A stretch of DNA of 64,000 nt from Styela clava (lineage: Eukaryota > Chordata > Ascidiacea > Stolidobranchia > Styelidae): the NCBI RefSeq assembly GCF_964204865.1, contig NC_135259.1, positions 13,092,974 through 13,156,973 on the forward strand, read 5' to 3'. The notes beneath the pieces were generated by a model, which saw only the letters and a program-made list of their open reading frames with translations, searched no databases and had not been told where the DNA came from. Every line of letters starts with the position of its first letter. Position 1 is the stretch's first letter. Positions 3,001 to 50,800 of the stretch are shown here, in pieces. Position numbers and translations under genes: made by a program.

Positions 3001-5384
3001 GTGCATGATATCGGTTCTGAAACTAGCCTCTGATCTATATGTATCACAAAACTTATCTACAGTCTCTTTTCCATTACACTGGAGACAACTGTCAGTAAAT
3101 TCTATAACGGAAATATGAATAAATTAATTGTCACCTGTAGTAATATATTTTATATATAGTATCCCGTTATAATGGTGTTCATAAACCTGTCACAATTTTG
3201 ATTTCTTGTTGTGAAGTCAGCTCCCAATATATCTTAACCAGTTCTTTACTTTGATAATTGTTTGTTTAAATTTTATTACTTCATATATTACAATTATATA
3301 TAATAGACACGCCATTAGTTGAAATTTTTTTTTACCTTAACCTGACACAAGAGTTTATAAAAATTGGAGAAGTACAAGTTTGACTAAATGAATGAATAGA
3401 ATAATCTTTTTTACAGAAATGATGCTAATGGTACATTCCTAACTCAAAATGATGATGCTTTCACGTCTCGTGAAATTCTGTCTAAAACTATACTTCTCAA
3501 CGGCCATGAGTTCAACTATGAAAAATGGAGACAAAAAAATCCACTTCAGGATCCCGACGAATTTTTTGATGTCATTCAGGAACATGGTGGAATTGAAAAC
3601 ATTATTGAAAATGTTAAGCTAGGAAAGTATGCATTTGTAGATCAGGACAAAGAAAAACACAAGGACAAAACAAACGGCAGAGTTATTAAAACTGATGTAT
3701 ACGATCGTCCAAAGCTTGTGGGGCCGGATGGTCATGAAGGAGGCATTATTGGTAGAGCATTTGATGTACCAAGATTTCGAGCAAGAAATTTGATTGCTTA
3801 CCAACCACCGCCAGGATGCCATGGCGGTCCGTACGAATCTGGTGATATGTGCAACCCTATTTATCATACGAAAGCTGCTCCAACCATCCAGGCAGAAACA
3901 ACTTTAGCAACAACCATGGAAGAGGCGACCACTGGAGCAATCACATCTATACATACCACAAAAGAGCAAATCACAACATCTCAGATTACAACATTAGACA
4001 AAGAAACCACACTGAAGAGCACAACCCCTGAACCTCCAACTATATACTTTACAATTACAGTCGGGCGCACCACTGATCAACCAACGACCACAGAACTAAC
4101 AACTTCATTTGAGAGCACCACTAATCAACCAATCATAACAGAGTCGGCTTCAATCGACCAGACAACCGCACAACCAATCACAACATTAACGACATCACAG
4201 AAACAGTCGACTACGGCATTTGATCAGACATTGTCTCATGGATTCACTGTTAGACAAACATCACCTCAACCAGTATCAACAACGCTGTTACGCACCACCG
4301 AGTTAGGAGTGACTACGACAGAAGCAACAACAGTTTATAATAGTGTCATTAGAATGCAACTCTTCGAGGTTTGTTTCTATGCAAAAATATCATGATATCC
4401 AATTGTTTGATGCATCATTATCTGGGAGCTGAAATGCAAACAATTAATTGAAAGACAAATTGCGAATGTAACCAAATCTGTAATCACTTTTCAATATTTT
4501 AGGATAAAGCATTGACCCGTGAACTTGGACCTGATGGAGCCAAAGTGGGGTCTAAAGTGTTTGTTCATGTGGGACCAGGTAAAAACGCACAAGCAACACC
4601 TGGAGTTTGTCCTTATGTTCGTACATGCTGGATGAACGTGGGTGATACAGTTTCTAATGGGCAAAATAGAACAGACACGAAATTAATGCTCGTAGAAGAC
4701 GGGTGAGGCAAACAATTTTTCAGTATTTGATATTTATATTAAAAATGACCAATGATACGTGCAGTGCTGGGGTGGATATTTGCTTGAAACGATTGCTTTG
4801 TCTATTATACTTTGATACTATTTAACCTCGACTAATCAACACGTAGCCATATCCAGTTCAAAAAAGGTTGTATATATTATATTTCATTTTGTGTAATGCA
4901 TATGCGTTCTTGTAACTGAAAATCTAACTTAGAATTCGACTGAATAAGAAATTGCATTGTGGCATACTCATTTGACTCCTTTATTTCCAGATGTCCCGTG
5001 AATAAAAATCCTGCTGGTTTGGAAATATCGAGCAATGGGAGATCTCCGAATTCCGTATTTTCATTTCAGTCACTCAAGTACAACTCCGTTCCAGATGGTA
5101 TTGGATATTACATTCAGTGTAATGTAACAATATGTGACTGCTCTTTGACAGGATGTGGCAAGGTTGGAAGCTTTTTATATCAAATCCTAGATATATACCG
5201 TAATTATTTGTTAACATTATTGGGTATGGTCCAGGTGGATGCCTGTCGAAAGCGATCAAACTTTCATATACTTCGCTATAAAATTTTGTTTCAGAAGCCA
5301 TTAAACATACGGGAGAATGTTATAATTATTATATATAGAAATTTTCTCAAAGCTTCAATTGTGTTGTTTCAGGATTGCGGTTAA
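11..5384 (+). CDS. vWA-EGF-ZP domain secreted protein (3' part, 5' end outside window)
   Basis: Eleven exons can be joined: 11-333, 779-977, 1257-1394, 1828-1945, 2099-2192, 2335-2447, 2841-2963, 3417-4368, 4503-4702, 4991-5162 and 5373-5384. Phases close throughout, giving about 813 residues. The first two exons hold the second half of a von Willebrand A domain (strand NVRVTVAQF, later helix and strand VFVQLSKQGVLSYIAAY); its MIDAS N-terminus lies outside the window. Exon 1257-1394 is a Cys-rich EGF-like module. Exons 1828-2963 carry the four ZP-N cysteines (MLTC, RDEC, DNKC, NVKCIY). Exon 3417-4368 is a long linker that becomes Thr-rich and mucin-like at about 3880-4350. Exons 4503-5162 form ZP-C (CPYVRTC, GCPVNK, CNVTICDC, TGCGK). 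The reading frame stops four codons later with no membrane span, so the product is probably secreted and polymerises into an extracellular coat or matrix. The donor at 978 (gtttac) is the weakest splice call; a better-looking gtgagt at 965 gives the wrong phase. Confidence 0.85.
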
Positions 5385-6964: not shown

Positions 6965-6970
6965 TTTATT
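6965..6970 (-). terminator. Polyadenylation signal of the ALK-like gene
   Basis: AATAAA read on the minus strand, about 67 bases after the stop codon at 7037. It is a canonical hexamer at a suitable distance. Confidence 0.55.
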
Positions 6971-7036
6971 TTATTGAAAATTAGTAACAAAAGTGTGAAT
7001 ATAATATTAAAATTTTTCATTAATTAGAATGCCAAT

Positions 7037-9841
7037 TTAACTACTTTCGGATGGCCTTTCTTCTTGTTTATCTGATTTTAGTCGCTTTAAAAATTTGTTC
7101 AACATTTTTCCTCCATTACCATCATAATCTCGAATTGCTTTCGCCAATCTCATAATTATAAATCCGATTAACAAAGTGAAAAGAACCCCTGCAATAAACG
7201 TCATTGCAATATAAACCACGACTGGTCCGCAACATTGATGACCTGTTAAAAAAAATAAAATTTTGAGTATTTCGTTATATCAACCTCAACATGAATAAAT
7301 TAGCCCAAGCAAATATAACGTCGTACCTATGAAGCTGATAATCACTGCCCCTTTTCCGCGATTTGTCACGGCATTCCTCTGACGGCCACCATTGTTTATT
7401 GATCCGCCTCCTCCACCCCATCCATTTAAAGAACCACCTCCGCCACCAGAATAACCCCCTCCTCCGCCTGATCCTCCATCTCTACTACCAGAACCTCCAC
7501 CTCCAAAGCCACCATTGTTTTCGATGAGATTGCCGAATTTATCCGTATACATGAACTGACCACCAACACCAGGGGCATTATGAGTGACGCCAGTCGTCTT
7601 AAATGCTTTTGCTGCTCGAATTCTTACATCTTGACCTGGTGAGGCGTAACTGAGATCACCATCACCCGTATATCCAGCACCGCCACCTAAGTTGAAACAA
7701 AATATATACACGGTATTCAAATTTTTTTTTCATAAATATTTCCTTTATATATGAAATAGGAAATCTATGCTCAAATATAAGGACACGAAAGCCCACACTT
7801 GTAGCATGAAATCTTTTACAGCACCGGTAGACCGACAACTGTATAGCTGAAATGCAGTCACGGAACCACTCACAATGCGCAATTTTGATTACGTCATTAC
7901 ATACAAAAACGAATCCTACAGAGGTCACCGAAATTCTTGAAATGAATAAAAGTTATAATCTTCTAGCGAAAAATATTATCTTTAACCACGGACATTTTCA
8001 ATTTTTAAGCAATGAGTCCAGTAGTTAATGGGGAAAGAAATTTTTCATAACGATACAAAAATCAAGAACAACAACATAGTAACAAAACGATCCATATGTA
8101 AAAATTCGTGTCCAATAAACTTGCGTTGGTACCTGACGAAGAAACTTCTTGTCCTAAAAGGGCACCTCTTGTACCGCCTACTTTTTCAACACCACCCAGG
8201 CCATATAAACCTTGCGGCCTCGAACTATTTTTGCCTTCAAGTGTAAGTGATGCATCTGCATTTACGCTCCAATCGTTCCATTTTGTACCGGACCCGCTAC
8301 TTCCTCCTCCAGCGACCATTAAAATATATTCATCGCTTTCTCGCTGTATGAACGTACCACCCGATCCCCCAATAGGACCCCGAGGATTCGCGAGATCAGC
8401 AGAGTCACTTTGTTGGCCTAAAATAGAAATAAAAGTTCTCCAGGTAACAAGTTCATTTCCTTTTAATAAAAAATATAGCTTGACTCAAGTTTTAGTATAT
8501 AATTGTATGTTATAGATATAAGTAACTGTTTCTAAATAAGTACATGGTACGTGTTGAAGACGAACTCTTAGTTCATCAATTTTAAACTTTTAAGGACACT
8601 CAAACCAGATTGATATCCAGATAAAAGTGAATTCGAAAGTCAACTTGCCTTGTAGTTACTGTACTGTGATAATAAATTAGCGGAATAATGGCAAAACTAT
8701 TATGATTTAATAGTTGAGTAGTTTCCCTGAAATAATATGGTGCCAATTATATCATTAAGGGCACAATACCACTAGACTAGTAGTTAAGCCATTAAACGAA
8801 GCATGTTTGCATTGCAGGAAAGAAGATAAAAATAGTAGCATCCATGCTCTATACTAGGGTGAAGGTATTGAAAAACCTTTGTAATAAAGAGTACAAATTG
8901 AACGAAAAATACATTACCTACAATTATCTTCATGCGCTGCCCTTCAGTCATGTGGAATTCAGCTGTTATATCAGCTCCTTTTCCAGGATTTCTACTTGTA
9001 GTTGATGCACCTGATGGTCCTCTTGCTAAAAATTTAATTGTTTAATTTTTGAAAGTCAGTTTCATAGCGGAGAAATCGGTAGTAGACAATAGAATTATCC
9101 AGTTTTTCTGGCTCTATGCTAGGGTTGTATTATGGTTATGGGTATGGTATATGAAACGTTGTCAAAGCCCACATTAGGAAAAAAAACATTTTAAATTTTA
9201 GAGTCTACCTGTAACCAGGTACAATCCAGACACTGGAACCGTCCAGATTTGAACGCCATTGTCCACCTGAATATCTCCTTCAAGATTTGTGTCCGTGTAT
9301 ACGACATCGCACATTTCCTGTGAGAAATATTACGTGGTTATTTACAAAATCATTTCTGTCCTTTATGATACCATATCATAGATTAGTTTAGGGACTTGCA
9401 GAACCTACAAACGTTATCATTTATGAATCTCATATTTATTTATTTGCATAAGGTTGAACACACTTAAACTCGTACTTTTGTATGCGACCAAATTTTAAAT
9501 ATTGGAAACTGAATCTAAATTAAAGGCTTGCTTGACTAGAAAATAATTGATATTATAGTATTATAATAATTTTCGAAGTTGCGAAATGATATCCCATTTG
9601 TTTTCCCTATATACACATAATGAATAACAAATTAATTCAAAACCTAAATACAGGAAAATATATTTGCCTGACAACATAAAACAAAGGTTTATTTGCATAC
9701 CTGAGTTGGACCAAAACGACCTGATTGTCCGCAGTCACTGAAATCCCATCTTAATTCGACGACAGGTTCGGTTGGGATCTTACTTTTCACCGCAGAAAAT
9801 AGGCTAAACAATAAAACTAGTACATCAAAATAAAACTCCAT
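7037..9841 (-). CDS. ALK/LTK-type glycine-rich receptor ectodomain with membrane span, no kinase
   Basis: Six exons on the minus strand: 9841-9701, 9317-9209, 9025-8918, 8417-8133, 7686-7327 and 7242-7037. They total 1,209 nt and 402 aa, and every phase closes. The ATG at 9841 opens a signal peptide (about residues 1-24). Next comes WDFSDCGQSGRFGPTQ, matching the start of the ALK/LTK glycine-rich domain. VQIWTVPVSGLY, KIIVGQQ, a GG-GG-rich sheet and loop region and a KGAVIISFIG end follow in the order known for that domain. Residues about 341-366 are one membrane helix, then 36 mostly charged residues ending in ESS and a stop. In ALK and LTK this domain binds ALKAL/FAM150 ligands and is followed by an EGF-like module and a tyrosine kinase. 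Here GHQCCGP leads straight into the membrane helix and there is no kinase. It may be a decoy or co-receptor, or a member of the wider Gly-rich (PF12810) family. The fold is well supported; the role is inference. Confidence 0.85.
7850..8115. repeat. Dispersed repeat copy in intron 4 of the ALK-like gene
   Basis: This segment runs from a 'ggaaccactcacaatgcgca' end to 'aaacgatccatatgta'. It shares long blocks (aataaaagt..cttctagcgaaaaa, ttaatg..gaaa, aaaacgatccatatgt) with 36880-37045, 39515-39930, 48265-48690 and, inverted, 62401-62665. No coding capacity is seen. Confidence 0.7.
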
Positions 9842-10869: not shown

Positions 10870-13800
10870 TTATTCGTGTTTTTCCAACATAGCTTCTGAA
10901 TAAGCTGCCTCTCGTGCACTTCTTCTTTGGAGATGCTGTCGTCCAGTTATCAGCATGCCAATATACGAAATACCAAGGAGACCTATCAATCCGCTTACGA
11001 AGTAAATCTACAATGTGAAAATGATTTATTGCAATATTATTTATATTCTATAATACAAAATTTGAATATTAACGTTTCATTGTTAGTGGCATGGGCTGCG
11101 GAGAGAAAAGTGAGAAAAAGTCTCAGTAAAATTGTTCAAAATCCCACCAAACTCGATTATTTGAGGAAAAAATATTAAAATGTCGGCTGAAGCAAGCTCG
11201 TCCATTATCTGAAATACGCAACAGCATTTCTTTCAAAGAATAAAATACATACCACACTGTAAGGGTTAATATCAAAAAGTATTCCAGCAATTGGAAACGC
11301 TCCTACAGCTCCGATAGCTGCTCCGATTTCAAATATGACAGCATATCTTCCAGATACATTTGTTATTTGTGAAACCCATGACACTCCTAAAATTTGATGA
11401 ATCCAATTTTATTCGTAAACGAAAAATGATAATAAAAGTTAGCATTCCAGTATCATTTTATATCAGTGATAAGCAATGTAATTAATGAAAATTTAGTTTA
11501 AAAATATAATACTCAAATATTTGATGGAAACGTGCTTCCTGAAACTTTTAAATAATTTGTACAAAGTTTTCAAATCCCATTGAAAGTGACTGAAATTGTC
11601 TCACCTGATCCAAACAGTGGAGATATTGCAAGTGCCCACATTCCAGTAGTTGCCCAGGCAACAAACTCATGCTCCTCCCCTAGGGCTGACATGATAGCCT
11701 AAATGGGTTTGGAAAATTTTTGTTTAGTCTATACTTTTTCGTTTACACGATTTTTGTTATTCTAGCTCTATAAACGGACAGAAGTGTGAAACGAGGGGTA
11801 GGGGTATATAGCATATGGAACACTTTGGTGGGAAGATGTGGTGTAGTACATTTGTAGGACGTATTCATTTATTTTATGTATACACATATAAGTTTATGTA
11901 CTGGTTACAAGTATAGAATAGAGCATACCGTATCTAATCTAAGACAAATTGTATTAAAATGAAATATATTTGAAAGTCCAATTTCGTATCTGATGTAGGG
12001 AAACCAATAACGTACAACAGCATAGGCGCGCGTTCAAAATATAAACTGGAAGTCAACAAAAGCAATGGATTACCGTTGATGTCAATAAAGTAAAAATACA
12101 CCCAGTAATTAACGTAGATGGCCGTAGTTTCGACGCTGCAACAAACGCTATTAATCTTCCAACAATAAAAAGGCCCCAGTACAAAGAATTGAGAGATGAC
12201 GCTGTTGATACCTTGAAAAGATAAAAGTATTGTATAATGAATGCTAACCAGGATGTTAATGATTATCACATCTAAACCATCCATTTTCTCGTGGAAAGGC
12301 TTTATAGTCGAACGTGTTTTCATAAAGGAACAAACAGTTTTGAAAGTCTTAGTAATAAGAATATTTTTATAGCACGTTTATCACCGCAAGTAGACAAAAT
12401 AACTATAACTACTATTTGGTCTTAAAATAAAAGAAAGGGAATTTCGAACTTACAGAAAATTGAAGTTTTGAGCAGTATGATACTGAATATATGTAACTTG
12501 CAAATACGTTGACTGATCCGACCTGTAATAAATAATAATATTTGTGTGGAAATTCAATAAATTTTCCCTCGGTTTATATATATATGATAAATTGGAATTA
12601 ATTCTTTCTCAAAAGTATCAACAGTATGAAGTATTGAAATTTAAAAAAAAAAAAAATGCTTCGTTGCATCACAAGGGAAGGTCAAGAAATATTTTTTCTA
12701 ACTTCAAAATATTGAATGAAAATTTAGTTTGTGAAATAATGTAAACGATTACGTATTTTCGTACTGAACATCAACTAATAATAATATTCTGTGCCAATGA
12801 TGCATTACGCATCTTTTATCATGTAGCAAATAATTAACAGCATAAATACATATGTCGTTGAAACCTCGTTCAAGAAGCCAAACAAATGCGCATTTTTTTC
12901 TCAGACCAGATTGAATTATATTCAGCTGGTACACATTTGGTACAAGAACAATTTTATGAGATGGTTCGAACATTTGCTTAGAAAAGAGCTCTATCTTAGC
13001 GAGATATTTACTGGAACCAAAGCTTCGGCAACTAGTTTATGATTCGTTGAAAAACATAGATTTTATTTACCTGGAACGCGTAAAAACAAATAACGCACAA
13101 CAGGACGACTGCAACTCTTGATAAAGGTTCCTCTGGCCTTGATTCAGACGAAACTTTTTCACCAACTCTTGCACCATCTAGAGGATCAAAAATTCACCTA
13201 CATCATTACAAATTCTCGCCAGACAAACGTGTGAGTAATTTATGACATTTGAAAATTTGCATTTTAAATGCTTTCACGCGCATATATAATTGATATATTC
13301 CACATAGGGTGTTATTAGCTTTACTATGAATATATTATTGAAATAGATGGTAAGCAGATGTGCAACGCTTTTCGTACGCTTCAAGAGAGAGAAAGTTGTT
13401 TAATTACCAAAACATAATAAGCAGAATCTTGACTAATGCTACTCTATGTTACCTTCGATGCCACCAAGCGATAAGATAATCATAATAATTGCAATTAATA
13501 ATGATAGAGCCCCAATGATGATGTAGATCCATGTGACTGGATTAATATCAATCTAAAATAAATTTACAACATTAAATTAATTAAACAGTTATAAAACAAT
13601 AAAAAGATGGTTTTGAAAGCACAGCTTAAATCAGCGAAACGCCACCTTTCGTATTTTGCTCAGTAAATATCATGTATATAGGTATAGGAATCTTCGACCA
13701 AATGAGTTTCATACATATTGACGTAGTTAGTCTTGCCACAATCCCTCAGTTTACAGCATTTTGATGAGTGGCATACTTTAAACCGTATAAGATAAGTTTA

Positions 13801-15494
13801 CTTACGACTGTCTGTGATTCGTATACAGTTCCGTTTTTACCATTGATCGTCAAATTTGATAAAGCGTCGGTGACATTGTCCTTGGAACACGATGGAGTGT
13901 TTGGCTTTTTATAGGAACCCTCAGCAGCCATTCCCAAAAAAGGGCTTGCTGAAAAATAGGATTTCCGTGAACCAACATTTGCATTTTATTCGACAAGAGA
14001 CATTGATAAATCAGAAGATCAACATTTTTTTTTTACTGTAAGCCATACTACTCCGTAATCGTGTATATCGATGATTTGAATTCTTATGTTATTACTTCTA
14101 CCAGATATCTCCATTTGAAAACCAATTTTATCTTACCTATCAACGGCGCCATCATTGCTCCCATGCTGAAAATCCCCTGATAAAGTTGCATGAGAGGTCT
14201 GGACTTCTTTTCACCCCAGATGTCCAATTGAATCGCTAAAAATCCTAAAACAAAATATTTAGTACAGTTATAGTACAGCGCACCCATCATAGAGACTACA
14301 TTCTGTCTGTTTGGATGACTAATGTTAGGGATACCGGAAGAAAGAGAGAGAGAGAGATAGAGGAGGTGGTAGAAATAAGTTTAATTGATACCTGTATTGC
14401 TGAATCCAAAAAGAAATCCTCCTATACTCAAAACAGCGATTAATATCCATAATTCGCTCACAAAGGGAATGGACAATGTCAGCGCTCCAGCAACAATGAA
14501 TGATAAACCTGAAAATGAATAATTACAATTTCGACATTAAGCCAGCTCACAATGGAGTTATGTTGACTGTGAGCTTTATTGAATGGAGAGGCAAGTTGGG
14601 GCGATTTTTCGCATTAATTTCGAAATCAATTCTAAATAATATTTCGTTCGTCTTTTTCGATTAACTGCTTTAAAGTACGTAATTGTAGTTTATAAACCAC
14701 CAAAACACTCGAGTCTGATTCGTTATCGAGTTTCAGTATTTGTTGCGACTTTGGTCGTTAGGGCATGAGCCAAATGTATTAACCCTGTTGAGGCAAGTAT
14801 CTAAGACAAACATAGAACATGAAATTCTCCCATAATAACATACTCACCCAGTTTCATTGTAGCATTAAAGTATCTGCCACTGTTTTTCGAAATTAACGAT
14901 GCAGCGAAAGCACCAAGTAAGTTTCCAGCGGATCTCCCGGCCAAAATGGTTGAAACTTGTCCCACGTCGCTTGATACACTTTCAGCCAAAAACAGTAGGG
15001 TTGGCCCCGGTACAGCCATGTAAAGTCCCTGTCCACACAAATGAGAAATTGTTCATAATAAATTGAATATTCAGAAAAATTATAGTGCAAAATGTTTTTT
15101 CTTTTTTTACATTTAATTCAGAATTCGAATTTTGTTGCAAGAAAATTATTGAACTAGTATGAAGTAGTAGTATTCTCTATCAAACGGGCTTATGGAAATG
15201 TATTATTCGATATAGGATATATTTAATTCAAGTCAGTATATAAAGAAAATACCTCATACTTACATTAACAAAATTTGCAGCGTTAATAATGATGATAAGC
15301 AAGAAAGACGCGAAGCTGAAAGACAGTGTCGATTCATTACTAGTAATTGTGTCACCATCCGATGAAATAGAGTTCTTTCTTTCTGACATCTTTTCTTCTT
15401 CATTTGGTATGAATAAATCGGAATCCTTATTATTATTTTGATCTTCCACGTCCTTGGTGCCTTTATTCTCTAACATGGTGCTTTCAGCAGACAT
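10870..15494 (-). CDS. MFS transporter, MFSD4 / sodium-dependent glucose transporter 1 (NaGLT1)-like
   Basis: Twelve exons on the minus strand: 15494-15264, 15028-14848, 14508-14392, 14244-14137, 13948-13806, 13552-13453, 13177-13071, 12522-12454, 12211-12074, 11698-11605, 11386-11253 and 11007-10870. They sum to 1,560 nt (519 aa) with all phases closing. The protein starts with about 55 acidic, Ser-rich cytosolic residues, then a hydrophobic helix (SFASFLLIIIINAANFVNG). Family landmarks follow: PGPTLLFLAE, ILAGRSAGNLLGAF, FGFSNTGFLAIQLDIWGEK, GAMMAPLIG, a mid-protein loop with N-glycosylation sites, LYWGLFIVGRLIAF, then GVSWVSQ in the tenth helix region. The tail is basic (RQHLQRRSAREAAYSEAMLEKHE). 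Twelve membrane spans are expected. MFSD4A/B-type proteins are plasma-membrane solute carriers linked to sugar uptake; the substrate here is not shown by the sequence. The exon 12211-12074 donor (gtaatc) was chosen over a downstream-looking gtgtat because only it keeps phase and completes helix 9. Confidence 0.88.
14340..14359. repeat. GA microsatellite
   Basis: A short (ga)n run in intron 3 of the transporter gene. Confidence 0.7.
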
Positions 15495-20816: not shown

Positions 20817-20888
20817 GGGCTCGTCCGGGATTTGAACCCGGGACCTCTCGCACCCAAAGCGAGAATCATACCCCTAGACCAACGAGCC
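20817..20888 (-). tRNA. tRNA-Pro (anticodon UGG)
   Basis: Read on the minus strand, the acceptor arms GGCTCGT (20888-20882) and ACGAGCC (20824-20818) pair perfectly, with C as discriminator. The anticodon stem CTCGC/GCGAG closes a TTTGGGT loop, giving anticodon TGG at 20856-20854. The T arm has GGTTCAAATCC. There is no intron and no encoded CCA. Confidence 0.95.
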
Positions 20889-21223: not shown

Positions 21224-21295
21224 GGCTCGTTGGTCTAGGGGTATGATTCTCGCTTCGGGTGCGAGAGGTCCCGGGTTCAACTCCCGGACGAGCCC
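21224..21295 (+). tRNA. tRNA-Pro (anticodon CGG)
   Basis: GGCTCGT (21224-21230) pairs with ACGAGCC (21288-21294). The anticodon stem CTCGC/GCGAG closes TTCGGGT, giving anticodon CGG at 21256-21258. The T arm is intact. It differs from the UGG gene at 20817-20888 at only a few positions and lies in the opposite orientation, so the pair is a divergent duplication. Confidence 0.95.
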
Positions 21296-22873: not shown

Positions 22874-23731
22874 TTAAAGCGCTGAACGAGCTATATCAAG
22901 TGCCAGTTCGTTTGTTAAATCTAGTATACTTGAGGCACATGATTCTTTTCGGTCCAAATCAAAATTTGTCGAATCAACGTCCAGTGTTGTAATTCCACGA
23001 ATGCGATGATTGCAATTGATGGTCGTATAAATCACTGGCGCAGAAGAAAGTTGATTTACGTCATCGTTAGTAGTTTGAAGTATTGATGAATGGAATCCGC
23101 CGTGATCACAATGGGTTTGTTCTGAACTACACGGCGATGGAGGGGTTTTTACAATGTGTATATCTTTTCTATCATCCCGCGCGATGCCACTATCATTTTG
23201 CGAAGCTGTGTCACAGGTTGGGGTGATTTCTTCATACATATTATCTTTACTATCAGGTCTGGTATGTGTTTCGTTTTCTTCGTCTGTTGTTTTACCTTCT
23301 TGTCTTTGTATATCTGGTTCGTTCTGATTGAGGGCGATTTCGCACGATTCATTTTCAATTTTAGGAACAACTACGTTTGGCGTATTGCCAATCTCAATAT
23401 TATGTTCGTTATTACGTTTGATCATGCTCAAGTGTCGACGAAGCAAGCAAAACACGGCAAAAATTACCGATGATGTGAATATCACTCCAGTGAGAAAACC
23501 AACACCGCCAAACAACCATTCTTGACTGTTTGGAACGAAGCGTTCAGTCGTAACTGGTAAAATTGTTGTTTCATAAGTTGAACCGCTTTCAACTTCTTCT
23601 CCAATACCATCTCCTGATGTTATATTTTCCGCAGTATTATAATCAGCTGTGGTGTAAACATACGTAGTAGAAATTGTTTCGTCCGGATTTTCAGACTGAT
23701 CTTGTCCGTCTTGTACTTTAACCCAATTCAT
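22874..23731 (-). CDS. Single-exon single-pass membrane protein with tyrosine motifs in the tail
   Basis: This is an uninterrupted 285-codon frame. An in-frame TAA lies 12 bases before the ATG with no AG between them, so translation must start at this ATG even if 5' UTR introns exist. The N-terminal 72 residues are Thr/Ser/Glu-rich with an N-glycosylation site (N36) and no signal peptide. One hydrophobic span covers about residues 73-97 (LFGGVGFLTGV...FAVFCLL), followed by RRH, so a type III topology with the N-terminus outside is likely. The cytosolic tail of about 188 residues is acidic and low in structure. It has YEEI at Y166 and VIYTTI at 233-238, which fits the ITIM pattern. I do not recognise the family. 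Polyadenylation signals follow closely. Confidence 0.65.
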   Translation of the reverse strand: MNWVKVQDGQDQSENPDETISTTYVYTTADYNTAENITSGDGIGEEVESGSTYETTILPVTTERFVPNSQEWLFGGVGFLTGVIFTSSVIFAVFCLLRRHLSMIKRNNEHNIEIGNTPNVVVPKIENESCEIALNQNEPDIQRQEGKTTDEENETHTRPDSKDNMYEEITPTCDTASQNDSGIARDDRKDIHIVKTPPSPCSSEQTHCDHGGFHSSILQTTNDDVNQLSSAPVIYTTINCNHRIRGITTLDVDSTNFDLDRKESCASSILDLTNELALDIARSAL

Positions 23732-26364
23732 TATATATAGTTATTTAGCGCCTTCTATAAAAAGTACAAATATGGTATTTATAAGCATTGCATTCGCAAA
23801 TAGCAACTGAAAAGGAACTAAAAATATCAAAATCAAAAGCTCCCTAGCAAACCCACTGACTTACACATTTGCTGTCAAGGTACTATATGTTCGAATTTCA
23901 ATTTCAAATATTAGTAGCGTTTCTAGAGAATACAATAAGACTAAAGTCATAATTTTTACTCGGTTCGTAATACAGAACAAATTTTACAAAAGCTGATCGT
24001 AGCATATTGAAGATACCAAAAGCGATGCACATAATATGTCCTCGTCCCTCCTCGAACCAAATTAATCCTTCCACGAGGTTTTCAAAAAAGATTCGGCTAT
24101 TTCGAGTTGCGTGTCGTATTTATGTTAAATATGGTGCGAATCTACACAAATCTTAAAAGAGAAGCAAATAGATCCCCTTACGTCACAGGACAATTTTCAC
24201 TTTAAAATTAGAAAAATCGATTTTTGTTTATGAACATATTGGCACGCGCTCATCAGTATCTGCATATACTAGGTTCAACGGACGGGGTGGGTATCATATT
24301 TATACAAAATAACAGATCAGGGTGCTAATTTGGTATGCGATCTCAGCCGTTGTGTGATCACTGCTTTTGCCTTTTAGTTAGGGTTTGAAACTGAATCTTA
24401 TGAGAATATCTTTATTAGAGTGAACGCCACCACAATTGGTGCCACTTTGGTATGCGATTGAAATCACGCTAAGCAGTAATATTGCATACCAATGTGACAT
24501 CCACATTACTATGTAAAATAACGCCAAAGCAGTAAATATCAACATTGCTAAATAATTTTAGCAATCATATCAACGATAAATAACATTTTTTAACATACAT
24601 AATATAAATTTGTGAATTGAATATTTCCTTGTTGCAAACATTTTTAATCACGATGCATGACAGGTTGTTCGTAGCGTGTGTTGCCTGTTATGACAACTCA
24701 CGTGTCATTTTTACACGAAAACGAATCCATCGGTTGATATGCAGTCAGAAATAATAACGAATCGTCATTTCAAATATGTGTCTGTTGATATTGAAGCCTT
24801 CACGAAATGGGGAAACCGTACGTGTCTTGTCTATTACGCTTGAAACAGAAAGTATTCGTGGAATATTTATTTAAACACCCAAAGGCAAACGTGGGCGTTC
24901 GAGTTGATAATTTTTTGTTGACACACCTGAAGGGTTTAGCTGTTAACCATGGCTCTTGCCATCTTGCTGTTCCACACAATACTATACTGGTCAGCCAGAT
25001 ACATCGGCGAACTGCAGGAAATGCACTTGTGTAATATTATTGCAAGATATCGTCCTATCTGTATTTTTCGATACAACTTCGCATTGGGTATTTTCAACAT
25101 CACTTCGTCATCATCAATCCGTATCCATCCCACACATATGCTCTTTTTAGTCAGCATATAGCCAGATCTATGGTTCGTTATTTCCCTAGTCAGATTGGTT
25201 TTCAACATACTACAAGCATATTACCAGGCATATGATAAACATATGATCATAAGAATCTTATACTATAAAATCTGGAAAGTTAGTGGTGAAGTATCGAATG
25301 ATACCGTGTTCTACCAATCTTCCAATTTTTGCGTGATTAATCTAAATAATATAACATTGAATTGTCAATAAAAATATCCTTGTTTCTAAATTGAGATTTC
25401 TATTTCGGTGCGTCAATATTCATTCTGGTAGAAAGACCCTAAAACCGATTTGCTTTTGTGACATTGTGCAAATAAAATGTGATAAACAGTGTTGATTTAG
25501 TCCATCTCTTTAAATATCAGGATTCTCCCTAACAGTACACATTTGTATTGTAAGATTAGTAACCCATAAATTACAATAATTTTCCGTTTTCTGCGACAAC
25601 ACAAAATTGGGTATTTGCGAAAGTGGACTAAAATAATATCGATTTTGTTGCTTAAAATTCCCCTGCTGCACGTTAAAAACATGAACTTGCATCCATATGT
25701 CACCGCCACAATACGGGAAATCTTCGACATAGGTTTCGTTTTTGATTTGTGTAAGTTAGATCATGAATGATATGAATCTGATAAAAATAAGCACTACCGT
25801 ATACATAATCCACGGTTCTATATTGTCAAAAAGAAACAGTTTTATGATTCAGGATTTCCTCTTTGTCGTGTGCAGGATATGTGCACAAGAAAACAATGGA
25901 TGTTGCATTTTGCACTACACGCATGTTTAATATTGTCAATACATAGTTCATATAGTTCCATGAACCTTTCGAATTTTTGCATTTTATTTATTTATTACAA
26001 GACGTATTATTAATAGTGTGACATGGGCGTTCAGTACTATTCAAATGATCGTAAATGTTCAAGGAAGCTCTCGGAAACCGCCCAGTCTGTGTATTCTAAT
26101 TATGTTCTTCTGTTATACGTAAATTTACCTTACGCCCACGGTATGTATTTTGTTTTACATTGCCATATAGTAGAAGGAGCGTCCTATATATTGTGCTATT
26201 TGGTGGAGTACATTCATGAAATATGCAGCAACTGATTGTTAGATGTCACTGGCAAAAACCTATTACTGATGTACAAGTTATAATTCTTCAAAATTATATA
26301 TTCGTTTTAATTACTTTCAGGTCTGCTTTAAACTTACAATTTATAGAATAGTAGCATAAAATTA
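23732..26364. other. Intergenic region, small inverted repeat only
   Basis: No exon is supported. Near 24438-24501 an imperfect inverted repeat (ggtgccactttggtatgc / gcataccaatgtgacatc) is present, and its left arm resembles sequence near 5670. Open frames at 24807-25208 on both strands overlap each other and have no domain. Confidence 0.5.
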
Positions 26365-33140: not shown

Positions 33141-36100
33141 TTACACGGCTTCAAAAAATAATTTGTAAGAGAGAGGATGGTAGAACGTTCCTTGGTGACC
33201 ATGTGAAAACGGTGGTAAAGGGAAATCTGGATCCTCGGAGATTTTGAAATTTCGAAGTAGTCCCGACAAAACAAGAAAAAGTTCCATCTCAGCTAAATGC
33301 ATTCCAATGCAATTTCTCGGACCGATTGAGAAAGGAATTACGTGACTATGTTTTGAAAACTTTCCTTCGTCGTCAAGAAATCGTTCAGGTTGAAATTCAT
33401 TTGGATTGCTGAACGTCTTCGGATCTCGATGAACTTCCCATAGATTTATCATCACCTACAATTAGTATGTTTAGTTATAAGTAAACTTCTGCAAAAATCG
33501 GAATTCATAACCATGTTATACTTAATAAAGTGTTTGTTGGAAATGTATACCCGCCTAAAGAAACGATCGCAGTTGTCTTTCGAGGTAACAGAATTGCTAT
33601 TGGTTTGTGCCGTTGGATTTCATGTATAAATGAACATGTTAGATGCATATTTGATCGATTCTCCATCGAAATCGAACCAGCTGTACCTGGAAGTTGAGCA
33701 AATATGGACTTAATCGTTCAATTATCATCGTCTATATATTTATGTATTAAGTTCGACGAGATATATTAGAACTTCTATATTGTAGCCCATAACCTACCGC
33801 AATTTGCCCTTATTTCATCTCGCAGACTTTCCTGATATTCTTGATGTTTGGCGAGGTAGAGGAAGCACCACCGTAAAGTTGTAGTTGTGGTTTCTGATCC
33901 CGTAATTATTAAATCTCTTATGACAGCATCCAATACTTTTCTCTAAATTATAAATCAGAAAATACTAATCATAATATGGTAGGAAAATATTGCTCTTTAC
34001 GAAGTACATAGATGTATGACAACTCTGTAGAACCAATCATTCAACATGATCTCTAAAACCGCAAGAGGGCGTTTAGGAGGTTTATATCAGAAACTTTTTA
34101 TTATTGATTCTGATAGTGCTTATTGATGAATTGTATTGAAGTTGGCCGTCATCCATACTTTATTGCAACCCGTCGATCTTCTGAGAAAAAAATCTTCTTT
34201 GACTCATGACTGTTACAGCACGAAAAGCGCATGGTATGGATTTGAGAAAGGGACTGATCATTAAAATATCGTGGCTTGTTAACTGTGGTGTATTATCAAA
34301 ATGTATTAACACCGTGAAAGGTTCAATTTCTTCTTTATTCATTTTCTTTAGGAAAGCATCGATGAAATCCCGAATATCGTTCGGGTCGAATGTCTTTATG
34401 TGATTTGCAATCGCTGATCTAACGATTTCTACAAAGAAAGAAAGAATGGAATAGCTAGCTTTCAGACAATAGATGGTATCACAGCATCCAATACTTGCAC
34501 TATATGTTTGTATCACACTTTAAAAATTGTTGTTGTCGTTAGATTTCTATTACTTTTATTTGTATTAAAAATGGGCTTTATGAGATTCGTTTTTAACGTT
34601 GAAGCTTTGTTTGATAACGTCATCAGAATTAAAAGTTGCGCAACGTGTAGCAGTTCAGCGATAGTTTTTTTGACGAGCTGAAGGTAGACTACCGGTACTG
34701 TAAAAGATTCAATTTAACAGTTTTGACTTGAAGCATTTGGTATTTTGAATAACGTTAAGTCTGGACACGGGAATCATCATTGTCACGGGATCGGGGAAAA
34801 TTATAACTGTCACTGTATATCGATAACCTTGTAACGGTGCTGGTAAGTTAGCTGTTTCACAGTTACAGCTTCGTTCAGGATATGATTTTTGGAGTAATTG
34901 TGGGTGAATAATTTCGTTTTGGTCTTCGTGTCCATATATTTGAGTATTGCTCTCTTATTATTGCAAAGTGAGGCTATTCTTCGGAATTCATCGTAAATAT
35001 ATCAGAAACCTTGCAGCTGTTTAAATAATAAATCTAAATTAATACCTTTTGTGATTTTTACGTGCTCAAATGTGTCTTGCAAAACTTTTGAAAAACCTGG
35101 TAAATAACGAAGCAGAGGAAAAAATTGTATCTTTTGCAACCGGCCGTTGTTTTCGCCAAATCTGTTTATAACGAAAAGAATTTTACATAACCGAAATCAT
35201 CAAAACAAGAAAGTTGTAAAATAAATGCACAGTGACTCTAGACACAGCTATACTCTACAAAGTCAGATGATAGTATTTCTGGATTGGAGAAATGCTGATC
35301 GAAAGTGATAGATTGTCTAACGATTGGAAGAAATCATCAAATGACTTTTTATTGATGATTTAATATAAAAATATAATGCATACCGTTTTCTACTCATGTG
35401 CAACATTGTTTTGAAAGGCTCGCTTTCATAATCGACCCTATTTCCACTGACTATACTCATTATTATATTGATCGCAGCATTTCCAAGGTGATTCTGAAAA
35501 GTTGAATCCATTGAAAAAAAATATCGGACAATTATTTAAAGGTTGATAAGGATTAAATCACACTAAATCGGCAATGTAAACGGTTGTTTGTGGCATGGTA
35601 ACTTACAGTGACGTCGAAGGATCTTCCATGTTTAGACATTATAATTTCTGATAAAAATCTAACTTCTTCATTCACACGAGCTTCCATACTTCGCTTGCCA
35701 ACACCAAATCTGAAAGTAGGTGGAATGGAATTGAAATAGCACGTTGTTCTGACAGTCATATTTCTAAATAGTAATTCGTGTAGACAAAAATATAGAATAT
35801 TGATGGAATTCTTTACCTTTTCCAAAAAAGCGAATGCTAAAAAACTCGCAGAAGGGCGTCTTGATAAAGTTTTAATACAAATCTTAAGCTCTCAACAATT
35901 CATTTGAGCATCTTTTTTGATCCTAATATATCAGCAATTAGTATCACATATATTCACCCTTTTAGTGTCGTTATCCCAAATTTTCGTAGACGTCTATAAC
36001 TGTCGGAATGAGGTCGATAAACAAAGCCCAGATCTCCCCCAAACGAGCGTATAATAGCCGAAGCACTTTTGCCGGAGAGCGCGTCTCCCTTTTTCAATAA

Positions 36101-39072: not shown

Positions 39073-42000
39073 CTACTCGACCTCAAAAGATAATTTGTAA
39101 GGGAGAGGGTGATACAACATTCCATAGTGACCTTGTGTAAACGAAGGTAATGGATATTTTGGATCCTCGGAGATTTTGAAATTTCGAAGAAGTCCCGACA
39201 AAATAACAAAAAGTTCCATTTCCGCTAAATGCATCCCAATACAATTTCTCGGACCGATTGAGAAAGGAATCACGTGACTATGTTTTGAAAACTTTCCCTC
39301 GTCGTCGAGAAATCGTTCAGGTTGAAGTTCATTTGGATTGTTGAACGTCTTCGGATCTCGATGAACTTCCCATAGGTTTATCATCATCTAAAACAAGAGA
39401 AATATGTTCAGATATATCGACACAAGGGTCAGATGAGTAACGGCAGTCACTGTATCCTTATGTTCAAATATATGTACACAAAGACCAAAACGAAATATTG
39501 GGGATCTGCAAAAAACGAATAGAGTCCACGGAAATTTTAAATAAATAAAAATAATAGCCTTCCAGCGAAAAATACAGCCTTAAACTATTGGAAATTTCCA
39601 AGCAATTGGTCCGTTCGTTAATAAAACAAGCGATTTTCTCATTGTAGACTACAGGTACCGCAGTAATTACAACTAACGCAAACGCGGAACCGCCACAAAG
39701 TGCGCAATTTTGGATGACTTCGTGTCACACAAAAACGGCTATTTCAGATAAATAAAAGTAATAGCCTTCTAGCGAAAAAGACGATCTATAACTACTGAAA
39801 ATTTCCACGCAACTGGTCCGGTAGTTAATGAAAAAGTGATTTTCTCATAGCAACAAGGAGAAAAATACCAACAAGAACACCACCAACAACATAACGACAA
39901 AACGATCCATATGTACATTTCGTGTTCAGTAAGATGTTAAGTGACTTGTAGATGACTTGCAACTGTGGATTATAAATTATGAGTTAGTTCAACTTGGAAT
40001 TAGTAAAGTTATAAATCAACTTCGCTTTTCGAAAACCGAATTCATAATCATGTTATACTTACTAAAGTATTTGTTGGAAAAGTGTATCCGCCTAAAGAAA
40101 CGATTTCAGTGGTTTTTCGAGGTAACAAAATTGCTAGAGGTTTGTATCGTTGAACTTCATGTATAAATGAACTTGTTAGATGCATATTTGATCGATTTTC
40201 CATTGAAATCGGACCAGCTGTGCCTGAAAAATTGAAATACGATTTCAGTTATTATCGCTTAATTATCACGCTTAGATACCGAACAGAATGACAATAAACA
40301 ATATGGTGAATAACATATGATCACCGACATATTTATTCCAAAATTTTATTTATGCATTATTATAAGTCAGCGACGTATTACTTTGGGGTCTTAAGCATGG
40401 AACGGCAAAAGTAGGAAGACCGTTCAAGACATACTTTGCGCTATTACAGAAGACACTGGTTACTTATCGATCTTAAGATCGGTAAGTATGTTGATAGGTA
40501 TTTGTCTGTTTGTCTGTCTGTATGTAGTATGCCTGTTTGTCTGTTAGATGAACGCGATATCTCACGAAGGCGAAGTTGAATCTGCTTCAAATTTTGCATG
40601 TACATTCATTATATCTCGGACCAGAAACCTATTGATTTTGGATGAATTATGTCGTATAATTAGCGAGGTATTAATCAATTAGTGATGGGACACGCGGTGT
40701 CACTATAGAGTCATGAATCGAAACCGCAGTTTCGATCAATAAGTCTTTGGTCTCCGAGCGATATTCTCGTTTACATCTTGCAGATTGTCCTAATGCTATG
40801 GACAATAGAGAGTGGCGTAGTCAATGATATGAAGATGGCCGTGGGCATTTAATTTCAAACTTTTGGACGATCAAGTTACGTTTTACGTTTACTGCGGAAT
40901 ACAATTTCTGAAAATTTGGCGAATTTCATGAAAGAGCAAAAATTACAAAGTTAAGTTGAATACTTTCCATTATATACGACCTACCGCAATGAGTCTTTAT
41001 TTCATCTCGTAGACGTTTCTGATATTCTTGATGTTTGGCGAGGTAGAGTAAGCACCAACGTAAAGCTGTAGTTGTGGTTTCTGATCCAGCAATGAATAAA
41101 TCTCGTATGACAGCATCTAATATCTCTCTCTGTATGATAGATAAAATATATATATATTAATAGTGACAGACGCGGTATAGACTATAAAGCAAAATATTGT
41201 TTGATGAGAAAGACGCAGTAGTATGACATCTCTGTAGCGCAAGTTACTCTTCACGTAGTACTTATAACGTAATTTTTTAAATAAACTTGATTAACTTCTT
41301 AGTCGGAATTATTATTATTTGCGTTTCCTGATTTCTGTAATAATTTTCCAGTGTGTTCATACTCAGTACAAGTTTTCATTGTGGATATTGACTATGGGCG
41401 TTTCAGTCTAACTTCGAACTTATAAGGGAAACTTCATGCACAATATATACATAGCATATGCATCTGTTACAACGTCGATAAACCAAAATGCCATGCGATG
41501 ATAAGTAAATGACCAGGAACGTAGTCTGTGTCCTGAACCGTGGTTTTATGCATATGGAAACTGTATGCTATTAAAACGTTTTTACATACCGTGAAAGGTT
41601 CAGTTTCTTCTTTGTTCATTTCCTCCAAAAAAGCATCAATGAAATCTCGAATGTCGTTTGGGTCGAATGTCTTTATATGATTTTCAATCGTTGATCTTAC
41701 GATTCCTACAATAAAAGTATGGAATAGCTAAAAAAACATGTCAAGTTTCAAACAATTTTTATAGGACATAACGCTGGTGGAACTATCTTGACAACATATT
41801 TTCGGCATACCAGGTTGATATAAAGACTCTTCAATCTAGTTCGTTTTATTTCAACCAATCTCACCGAGCGTGTTTAAAATTTGTGGTTATATTTCGGCCA
41901 AATCATAAAGCATTACTTCAAATATTTTAAAATTGTTTATAACTTACTATTTACATAAGTACAGGGCTTTTCTAGCGAATCTAATCATTGCACACATACC

Positions 42001-47884: not shown

Positions 47885-50800
47885 CTACTCGACTTCAAAA
47901 GATAATTTGTAAGGGAGAGGGTGATACAACATTCCATAGTGACCTTGTGTAAACGAAGGTAATGGATACTTTGGATCTTCGGAGATTTTGAAATTTCGAA
48001 GAAGTCCCGACAAAATAACAAAAAGTTCCATTTCCGCTAAATGCATCCCAATACAATTTCTCGGACCGATTGAGAAAGGAATCACGCGACTATGTTTTGA
48101 AAACTTTCCCTCGTTGTCGAGAAATCGTTCAGGTTGAAGTTCATTTGGATTGTTGAACGTCTCCGGATCTCGATGAACTTCCCATAGGTTTATCATCATC
48201 TAAAACAAGAGAAATATGTTCAGATATATCGACACAAAGGTCAGATGAGTAACGTCAGTCACGAATAGAGTCGACGGAAATTTTGAATTAATAAAAATAA
48301 TAGCCTACCAGCGAAAAATACAATCCTAAACTATTGAAAATTTCCAAGCAATTGGGGCATTAGTTAATAAAAAATAAGTGAATTTCTCATTGTAGACTAC
48401 CGGTACCGCAGTAACTACGACTAACGCAAACGCGGAACCGCCACAAGGTGCGCAATTTTGGATGACATCGTGGCACACAAAAAACGAATGGAGTCCTCGG
48501 ACATTTCAGATAAATAAAAGTAATAGCCTTCTAGCGAAAAAGACGATCTATAACTACTGAAAATTTCCAAGCAATTAGTCCGGTAGGTAATGAAAAAGTG
48601 ATTTCTCATAACAACAAGGAGAAAAATACCAACAAGAACACCACCAACAACATAACGACAAAACGATCCATATGTACATTTCGTGTTCAGTAAGATGTTA
48701 AGTGACTTGTAGATGACTTGCAACTGTGGATTATGAATTATGAGTTAGTTCAACTTGGAATTAGTAAAGTTATAAATCAACTTCGCTTTGCGAAAACCGA
48801 ATTCATAACCATGTTATACTTACTAAAGTATTTGTTGGAAAAATATATCCGCCTAAAGAAACGATTTCAGTGGTTTTTCGAGGTAACAGAATTGCCAGTG
48901 GTTTGTATCGTTGGATTTCATGTATAAATGAACATGTTAGATGCATATTTGATCGATTTTCCATTGAAATCGGACCAGCTGTGCCTGAAAAATTGAAATT
49001 TGATTTCAGTTATTATCGCTCATATAACACGCTTAGATACCGAACAGAATGACAATAAACAATATGTTTATTAACCTAATATGATCACCGACATATTTGT
49101 TCCAAAATTTCATTTATGCATTATTATAAGTCAGCGACGTATTACTTTGGGCCCATGGAACGGCAAAAGTAGGAAGACCTTTCAAGACATACTTTGCGCT
49201 ATTACAGAAGACACTGGTTACTTATTGATCTTAAGATCGATAAGTATGTTGATAGGTATTTGTCTGTCTGTCTGTATGCCTGTTTGTCTGTTTGTTTGTC
49301 TGTTAGATGAACGCGATATCTCACGAAGGCAAAGTTGAATCTGCTCCAAATTTTGCATGTACATTCATTATATCTCGGACCAGAAACCTATTGATTTTGG
49401 ATGAATTATGTCGTATAATTAGCGAGTTATTGATCAATTAGTGATGGGACACGCGGTGTCACTATAAAGTCATGAATCAAAACCGGAGTTTCGATCGATA
49501 AGTCTTCGGTCTCCGAACGATATTCTCGTTTACATCTTGCAGATTATCCTAATGCTATAGACAATAGAGAGTGGCGTAGTCAATGATATGAAGATGGTCG
49601 TGAGTATTTAATTTCAAACTTTTGGACGATCAAATTTAAAAGTTACGTTTTACGTTTACTGCGGAATACAATTTCTAAAAATTTGGCGAATTTCATGGAA
49701 GAGCGAAAATAACAAAGTTAAGTTGAATACTTTCCATTATATACGACCTACCGCAATGAGTCTTTATTTCATCTCGTAGACGTTTCTGATATTCTTGATG
49801 TTTGGCGAGGTAGAGTAAGCACCAACGTAAAGCTGTAGTTGTGGTTTCTGATCCAGCGAGGAATAAATCTCGTATGACAGCATCTAATATCTCTCTCTGT
49901 ATGATAGATAAAATATATTAATAGTGACAGACGCGGTATAGACTATGAAGCAAAATATTGTTTGATGAGAAAGACGCAGTAGTATGACAGTATGACAAAT
50001 TACTCTTCATGTAGTATACTTATTACGTAATTTTTTAAATAAACTTGATTAACTTCTTAGTCAGAATTATTATGCTGATAATTTAATGAAGCAATTTTTA
50101 CCGAAGTATTACAAATTTAGAATAAAATGATGTAGTAGTTTACTTATTTGCGTTTCCTGATTTCTGTAATAATTTTCCAGTGTGTTTATACTCAGTACAA
50201 GTTTTCATTGTCGATATTGACTATGGGCGTTTCGGTCTAACTTCGAACTTATAAAGGAAACTTCATGCACAATATATATACATAGCATATGCATCTGATA
50301 CAACTTCGAAAAACCAAAATGACATGCGATGATAAGTAAATGACCTGGAACGTAGTCTGTGTCCTGAACCGTGGTTTTATGCATATGGAAATTGTATGCT
50401 ATTAAAACGTTTTTACATACCGTGAAAGGTTGAGTTTCTTCTTTTTTCATTTCCTTCAAAAAAGCATCGATGAAATCTCGAATGTCGTTTGGGTCGAATG
50501 TCTTTATATGATTTTCAATCGTTGATCTTACGATTCCTACAAAGAAAGTATGGAATAGCTAAAAAAAAACATGTCAAGTTTCAAACAATTTTTATAAGAC
50601 ATAACGCTGGTGGAACTATCTTGACAACATATTTTCGGCAGACCAGGCTGATATAAAGACTTTTGAATCTAGTTCGTTTCATTTCAACCAATCTCACCGA
50701 GCGTGTTTCAAATTTGCAAAAGTGCAAAGTAGGCTTGCACGTAATTTACGGATTTACGGAATTACGTAATTATTTGGAGTTACGGAAGGGAAGTTACGAA

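Follow-up and report, generated by a model that had tools for sequence, protein, structure and literature searches.

The locus considered here raises the question of what the extracellular fold of the ALK and LTK receptors does in a protein that carries no tyrosine kinase. The gene lies on the minus strand at positions 7037..9841 of the window, by which we mean the whole 64-kb stretch of DNA that was analysed, and the initial annotation had suggested that its product would be a natural decoy or co-receptor for ALKAL-type ligands. Our analysis favours another answer: with a probability of roughly 55%, the predicted product (hereafter the window protein) would be a cell-surface adhesion or recognition protein, or a co-receptor, with a single ectodomain of TNF-like (TNFL) and glycine-rich (GR) parts, and not an ALK decoy. 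The question reaches beyond this gene. A genome that holds four ectodomain loci, with no ALK kinase detected beside them, is a natural test of the fold acting alone, and the sequence homologs seen in bacteria and in phages are relevant to the origin of the ectodomain of ALK, which belongs to a human oncogene family.

Gene model and predicted topology

The spliced translation closes from methionine to stop, as had been claimed, and gives a predicted type I membrane protein of 402 amino acids encoded by six exons; the five introns (383, 183, 500, 446 and 84 nt) are all of the GT-AG type. This model was derived from the genomic sequence. Exon 1 (9701..9841, on the minus strand, as are the other exons) encodes an N-terminus that was judged signal-like by eye, together with the first part of TNFL (WDFSDCGQSGRFGPTQ). 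TNFL continues in exon 2 (9209..9317; EMCDVVY...GVQIWTVPVSGLYLVT), which contains the second conserved cysteine, and in exon 3 (8918..9025; ARGPSG...FHMTEGQRMKIIVG). The GR part begins in exon 4 (8133..8417), and its bulk (GGFGGGGS...GGGGGYSGGGGG) is encoded by exon 5 (7327..7686), along with the final TNFL strand, GKGAVIISFIG. Exon 6 (7037..7242, read from 7242 to 7037 and including the stop codon TAA) supplies a juxtamembrane CC, the transmembrane helix and a basic tail of 36 amino acids. A polyadenylation signal, AATAAA, is located at 6970..6975 on the same strand, approximately 60 nt past the stop. Further downstream, the plus-strand ORF 4944-5384 gave a ZP-C match of 20.6 bits, against a Pfam cut-off of 24.6 bits, from which the downstream gene is probably convergent. 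When exon 4 is left unspliced, the frame runs on as GTNASLLDTNFYIWIVLLLCCCS and then stops (8062-8132, minus strand), and this hydrophobic end could define a truncated anchored isoform. Upstream of the gene, at about 10870-15100 on the minus strand, exons resembling a major-facilitator transporter were recognized by eye.

The order of elements in the window protein is a signal-like N-terminus, TNFL, the GR part (residues 122-335, 28.5% Gly), one membrane helix and the basic tail, which starts at residue 367. The helix is the only one predicted (hydropathy 2.62, windows 342-360 and 346-364), whereas the signal peptide remains a by-eye call, with no N-terminal 19-residue hydropathy window above the 1.6 threshold. 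The GR end (...SFIGHQCCGPVVV) abuts the membrane, and no EGF-like module lies between them, since the four cysteines of the whole protein (C37, C50, C338 and C339) are too few for one. There is likewise no kinase in the protein, as only the short tail follows the helix. The single membrane helix, the 36-residue tail and the missing kinase, all described previously, were thus borne out by translation and hydropathy.

Fold assignment, paralogs and the search for ALK

The initial annotation had assigned the ectodomain to the ALK/LTK glycine-rich fold from its motifs, and comparison with solved structures upheld this assignment. A phmmer search of the PDB with the window protein gave 15 sequences at E≤1, the top nine of which all belong to the ALK family (from LTK at 5.4e-14 to ALK at 7.4e-4), while the remaining six had E values of 0.049 or worse. 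The best matches to LTK (5.4e-14), ALK (4e-10) and worm SCD-2 (1.2e-6) cover residues 30-129. With 12 Gly per 100 residues, this segment does not owe its match to low complexity, and it scored 52.9 bits against the ALK segment, compared with a top score of 7.8 bits among 2000 shuffles. The protein also carries the TNFL signature GxxGPT...GxQ...VP..G.Y...G, followed by the GR part and the last GxVxI strand. The Pfam family PF12810 (ALK_LTK_GRD) was less decisive, at 16.4 bits (E=0.009), under its gathering cut-off of 24.5 bits; the proposed search therefore succeeded against the solved ALK and LTK receptors and fell short against PF12810. For the fold, more weight is carried by the match to solved receptors, and on sequence grounds the ectodomain is placed in the ALK/LTK TNFL/GR group. 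The sub-cut-off Pfam score and the by-eye signal peptide were nevertheless counted as points against our preferred explanation.

With ALK, LTK and SCD-2 the window protein shares the TNFL/GR module with its GPTQ motif and a single membrane helix, and with ALK and LTK also a cysteine pair. The parts that define the ALK family have been set out in a source whose account of the receptor side describes the fold only together with a kinase (PMC10605310). The window protein falls outside the ALK receptor family, because it has neither the EGF-like module nor the kinase. Functionally it could well resemble an ALK-type ligand-binding ectodomain.

The 376.6-Mb assembly (379 contigs) was searched for further TNFL/GR loci with the window protein, the domains of two paralogs (C18 and C1) and the human ALK TNFL as queries, at E values of up to 10, 0.1, 1 and 1, respectively. 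Four loci were found, on contigs C13 (the window gene), C18, C4 and C1, and all four are without a kinase; no locus beyond these was detected with the three family queries and the human ALK TNFL at the thresholds used. The window gene, with a TNFL spread across three exons, was missed by the C18 and human ALK TNFL queries. The three paralogous domains are 38-42% identical to that of the window protein, and a profile of all four matched ALK at 1.1e-19. PF12810 passed its cut-off for C1 (42.4 bits) and C4 (24.6 bits), and C18 was not listed at E≤0.01; a search of the genome itself with the PF12810 family gave no match, and neither did its controls.

The paralogs differ in what accompanies the module. 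In C18, TNFL/GR (6647138-6648145) lies within a single-exon ORF of 1233 aa, 1226 from the Met (L011 6045-9746, minus strand), that also encodes FN3 domains (two stretches pass alone), one membrane helix and its own stop. Its tail of about 204 aa contains six tyrosines and a polyproline run, and Pfam finds no kinase there; with this signalling-like tail, C18 may be the more informative family member. In C4 (19002737-19005242), a stop follows four residues past the last strand, and coiled-coil and fibrinogen-like exons were recognized upstream by eye (Fibrinogen_C scored 18.2 bits, under its cut-off of 22). C1 (matches at 11094297-11097403) encodes a signal peptide, again called by eye, and a TNFL/GR module, with 12 residues following the last strand. 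Two of the four loci, C4 and C1, thus look secreted.

The human ALK kinase domain, when searched exon by exon against the genome (128 of 273 candidates scored), gave at least 125 listed matches. An ALK kinase was not detected: none of the matches listed exceeded 54% identity, and all of these 125 lay farther than about 0.8 Mb from each TNFL/GR locus. On the window contig, where the window occupies 13.09-13.16 Mb, none was listed between 12.213 and 17.226 Mb. Nineteen of the 125 were translated and, by eye, include TEC-, TAM-, insulin-receptor-, MET-, DDR- and ROS1-like kinases. A full-length ALK had been expected to be worth looking for in the same genome; an ALK-like multi-exon gene was indeed seen, at C13:12.21 Mb, but it was rejected as ALK, being ROS1 by PDB search (5.2e-83, versus 1.3e-60 for ALK). 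The recovery of this gene indicates that the search can detect split RTK exons. Given the proportions of candidates scored and matches translated, the genome may still hold an ALK that is fragmented, divergent or unassembled. The ALKAL family (PF15129) gave no genome match, with controls also at zero. In passing, a long array of kinase-like ORFs, mostly of about 295-330 aa and 28-33% identical to the ALK kinase, was noted on C10 at 4.06-6.33 Mb. The one COX1 match in the genome is a nuclear fragment of 33 codons (C6:3634337-3634435), in which two of three AGG codons stand at query glycines, those of FGHPE and GFGM; reading AGG as glycine is a property of mitochondrial translation in tunicates (NCBI table 13), so the fragment points to a tunicate.

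These results allow two readings of the window gene to be weighed. It is very improbable that the gene is a partial model of ALK with its kinase exons missed, a caveat that the initial annotation itself had raised and to which searches that go exon by exon lend some weight. The reading frame ends in a stop codon with a polyadenylation signal close behind, the neighbouring gene is probably convergent, the flanking contig region is without a listed kinase match, and the single-exon C18 paralog has a stop of its own behind a 204-aa tail that yields no kinase match in Pfam. A role as decoy or co-receptor for ligands of the ALKAL or Jeb type is also unlikely, although the fold belongs to the same ligand-binding group as that of ALK and LTK and a kinase-less membrane anchor is how a decoy would be expected to look. 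The genome seems to be without ALK, the candidate gene being ROS1, and the window protein is therefore probably not an ALK decoy; it also has no EGF-like module. The residues E974 and E978 of ALK, which we take to be acidic contacts for ALKAL, correspond to R/A in the window protein, D/M in C18, I/I in C4 and L/K in C1, with the GxV in the last strand as the alignment anchor, so that the pair is kept in none of the four. Kinase-less use of the module is, moreover, common, extending from all four genome loci to bacterial and phage homologs. The decoy role that had been proposed was accordingly not sustained.

Homologs in bacteria and phages

A scan of genome contigs with the four-paralog alignment (at least 596 pattern matches) revealed at least five loci, four in Bacteroidota and one in a Neomarinimicrobiota MAG, on contigs of 16 to 715 kb, and the scan of viral contigs gave nine loci out of 459 matches. 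All 14 bacterial and viral matches cover at least query residues 8-60, within TNFL. One bacterial protein, L055, matched ALK by itself at 1.3e-15, and a profile of ten bacterial and viral domains (four of the 14 loci were left out) gave nine PDB matches at E≤0.01, every one of them ALK, LTK or SCD-2 (best 3.7e-24). The tunicate and prokaryotic/viral profiles matched each other with a probability of 100 (E=2.2e-46, 277 columns), a value that glycine composition may inflate, though the TNFL part was also aligned. Pfam labels two of the ten domains at E≤0.001. A structure model of the L055 domain had a mean pLDDT of 55.7; the ten-residue blocks of residues 1-90 reached 71-92, with one at 58, and the glycine-rich residues 127-263 fell below 50, with strands on either side of the stretch.

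The window domain, used as a query with four extraneous leading residues, matched two phage families of unknown function, phrog_22713 (1.7e-19) and phrog_7388 (6.6e-12). Among annotated phages, four records matched, two of which represent a single Synechococcus phage genome. The name 'ALK tyrosine kinase receptor' is attached to one product and 'hypothetical protein' to the others, an example of how annotation can mislead. The protein with the receptor name, from phage DSL-LC01, lies near collagen-like genes (L069 5554-12483).

The full TNFL/GR module is shared between the window protein and the Bacteroidota proteins L054, L055, L057 and L058 (37-44% identity over TNFL); these differ in having no cysteine pair and, in place of a membrane helix, a C-terminal segment that by eye resembles a type IX secretion sorting signal. 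With no ALK kinase detected and the same fold present in bacterial and phage proteins, the window protein resembles an ancient binding module in its own right more than a decoy for an ALK ligand.

A plausible but tentative account of origin, compatible with the preferred adhesion or co-receptor reading, is that the ALK kinase was lost in a tunicate ancestor while the ectodomain survived, was duplicated and became combined with new elements (FN3 repeats, a fibrinogen-like region, a bare membrane anchor). The cysteine pair, C...GPTx..C, was found in six of six animal rows (four tunicate, ALK and LTK) and, as a pair, in none of the 11 prokaryotic/viral rows. In a tree of these rows, one branch (65/91; 70% of bootstrap trees) has all the animal sequences to the same side, and ALK has apparently been lost in Ciona according to a published survey (PMC7851593). 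On the other hand, the tree support is weak over its 104 columns, and for C13, C4 and C1, three of the four tunicate rows, identity in the tree alignment peaks with a bacterial row (42% with L054, 43% with L056 and 50% with L056, respectively). The window gene has no EGF-like module, and an earlier family without a kinase that acquired one afterwards would fit equally well. A further scenario, which we regard as rather doubtful, would hold that the ALK ectodomain is an old bacterial or phage adhesin module that entered animals, was mainly used without a kinase and was joined to one once; tunicates would then have lost ALK itself, and a small kinase-less family would have been retained for surface recognition, its members being bare and membrane-anchored, of the FN3-membrane-tail type, fibrinogen-like or secreted.

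Possible function and other features of the window

Structural similarity between a phage fibre and worm ALK has already been published: Pam3 gp24 (PDB 7yfw) is close to C. elegans ALK, at 2.6 Å over 125 CA, and its TNF-like and glycine-rich pair has been proposed as the host-recognition end (PMC9608196). For a similar phage fibre, LPS recognition has been proposed (PMC12671077), and the glycine-rich bundles of ALK/LTK and S16 gp38 have been grouped together (PMC13243192). The window protein has the same domain pair as Pam3 gp24 and resembles S16 gp38 in the glycine-rich part only; the fibres form a virion trimer docked via a helical shaft, whereas the window protein has a membrane helix instead. 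In 2010, a glycine-rich domain was described in Trichomonas, Flavobacteria and C. difficile, as well as in phages, with its function given as unknown (PMC2843621). By description only, those of TvBspA, Flavobacteria and C. difficile and its phages resemble the window protein as kinase-less secreted, surface or phage proteins, and the Trichomonas domain differs in being joined to leucine-rich repeats; searching that paper's text turned up neither 'anaplastic' nor 'tyrosine kinase'. No title among the literature matches listed refers to a kinase-less ALK homolog or an ALK decoy, which is not proof of absence from print.

In the adhesion or co-receptor reading, the window protein, having no catalytic tail, would work as a recognition protein or alongside a partner. 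The TNFL sandwich would display a glycine-rich lattice, the tip loops of which might bind a partner belonging to another cell, to the matrix or to a microbe. Another possibility is that it acts as a co-receptor alongside the FN3-rich C18 paralog, an idea drawn from the composition of the C18 tail.

Several further features were recorded in the window. ORF 22874-23740 (minus strand) encodes 288 aa with one membrane helix and, by eye, tyrosine motifs in its tail; Pfam gave no match for it at E≤0.01. Two tRNA-Pro genes lie in opposite orientation at 20817-20888 (minus strand) and 21224-21295 (plus strand), with anticodons TGG and CGG. Three P450 terminal exons on the minus strand (33141-33455, 39073-39387 and 47885-48199), 81-97% identical in protein sequence and confirmed by Pfam p450 for the first, constitute a predicted tandem cytochrome P450 cluster.
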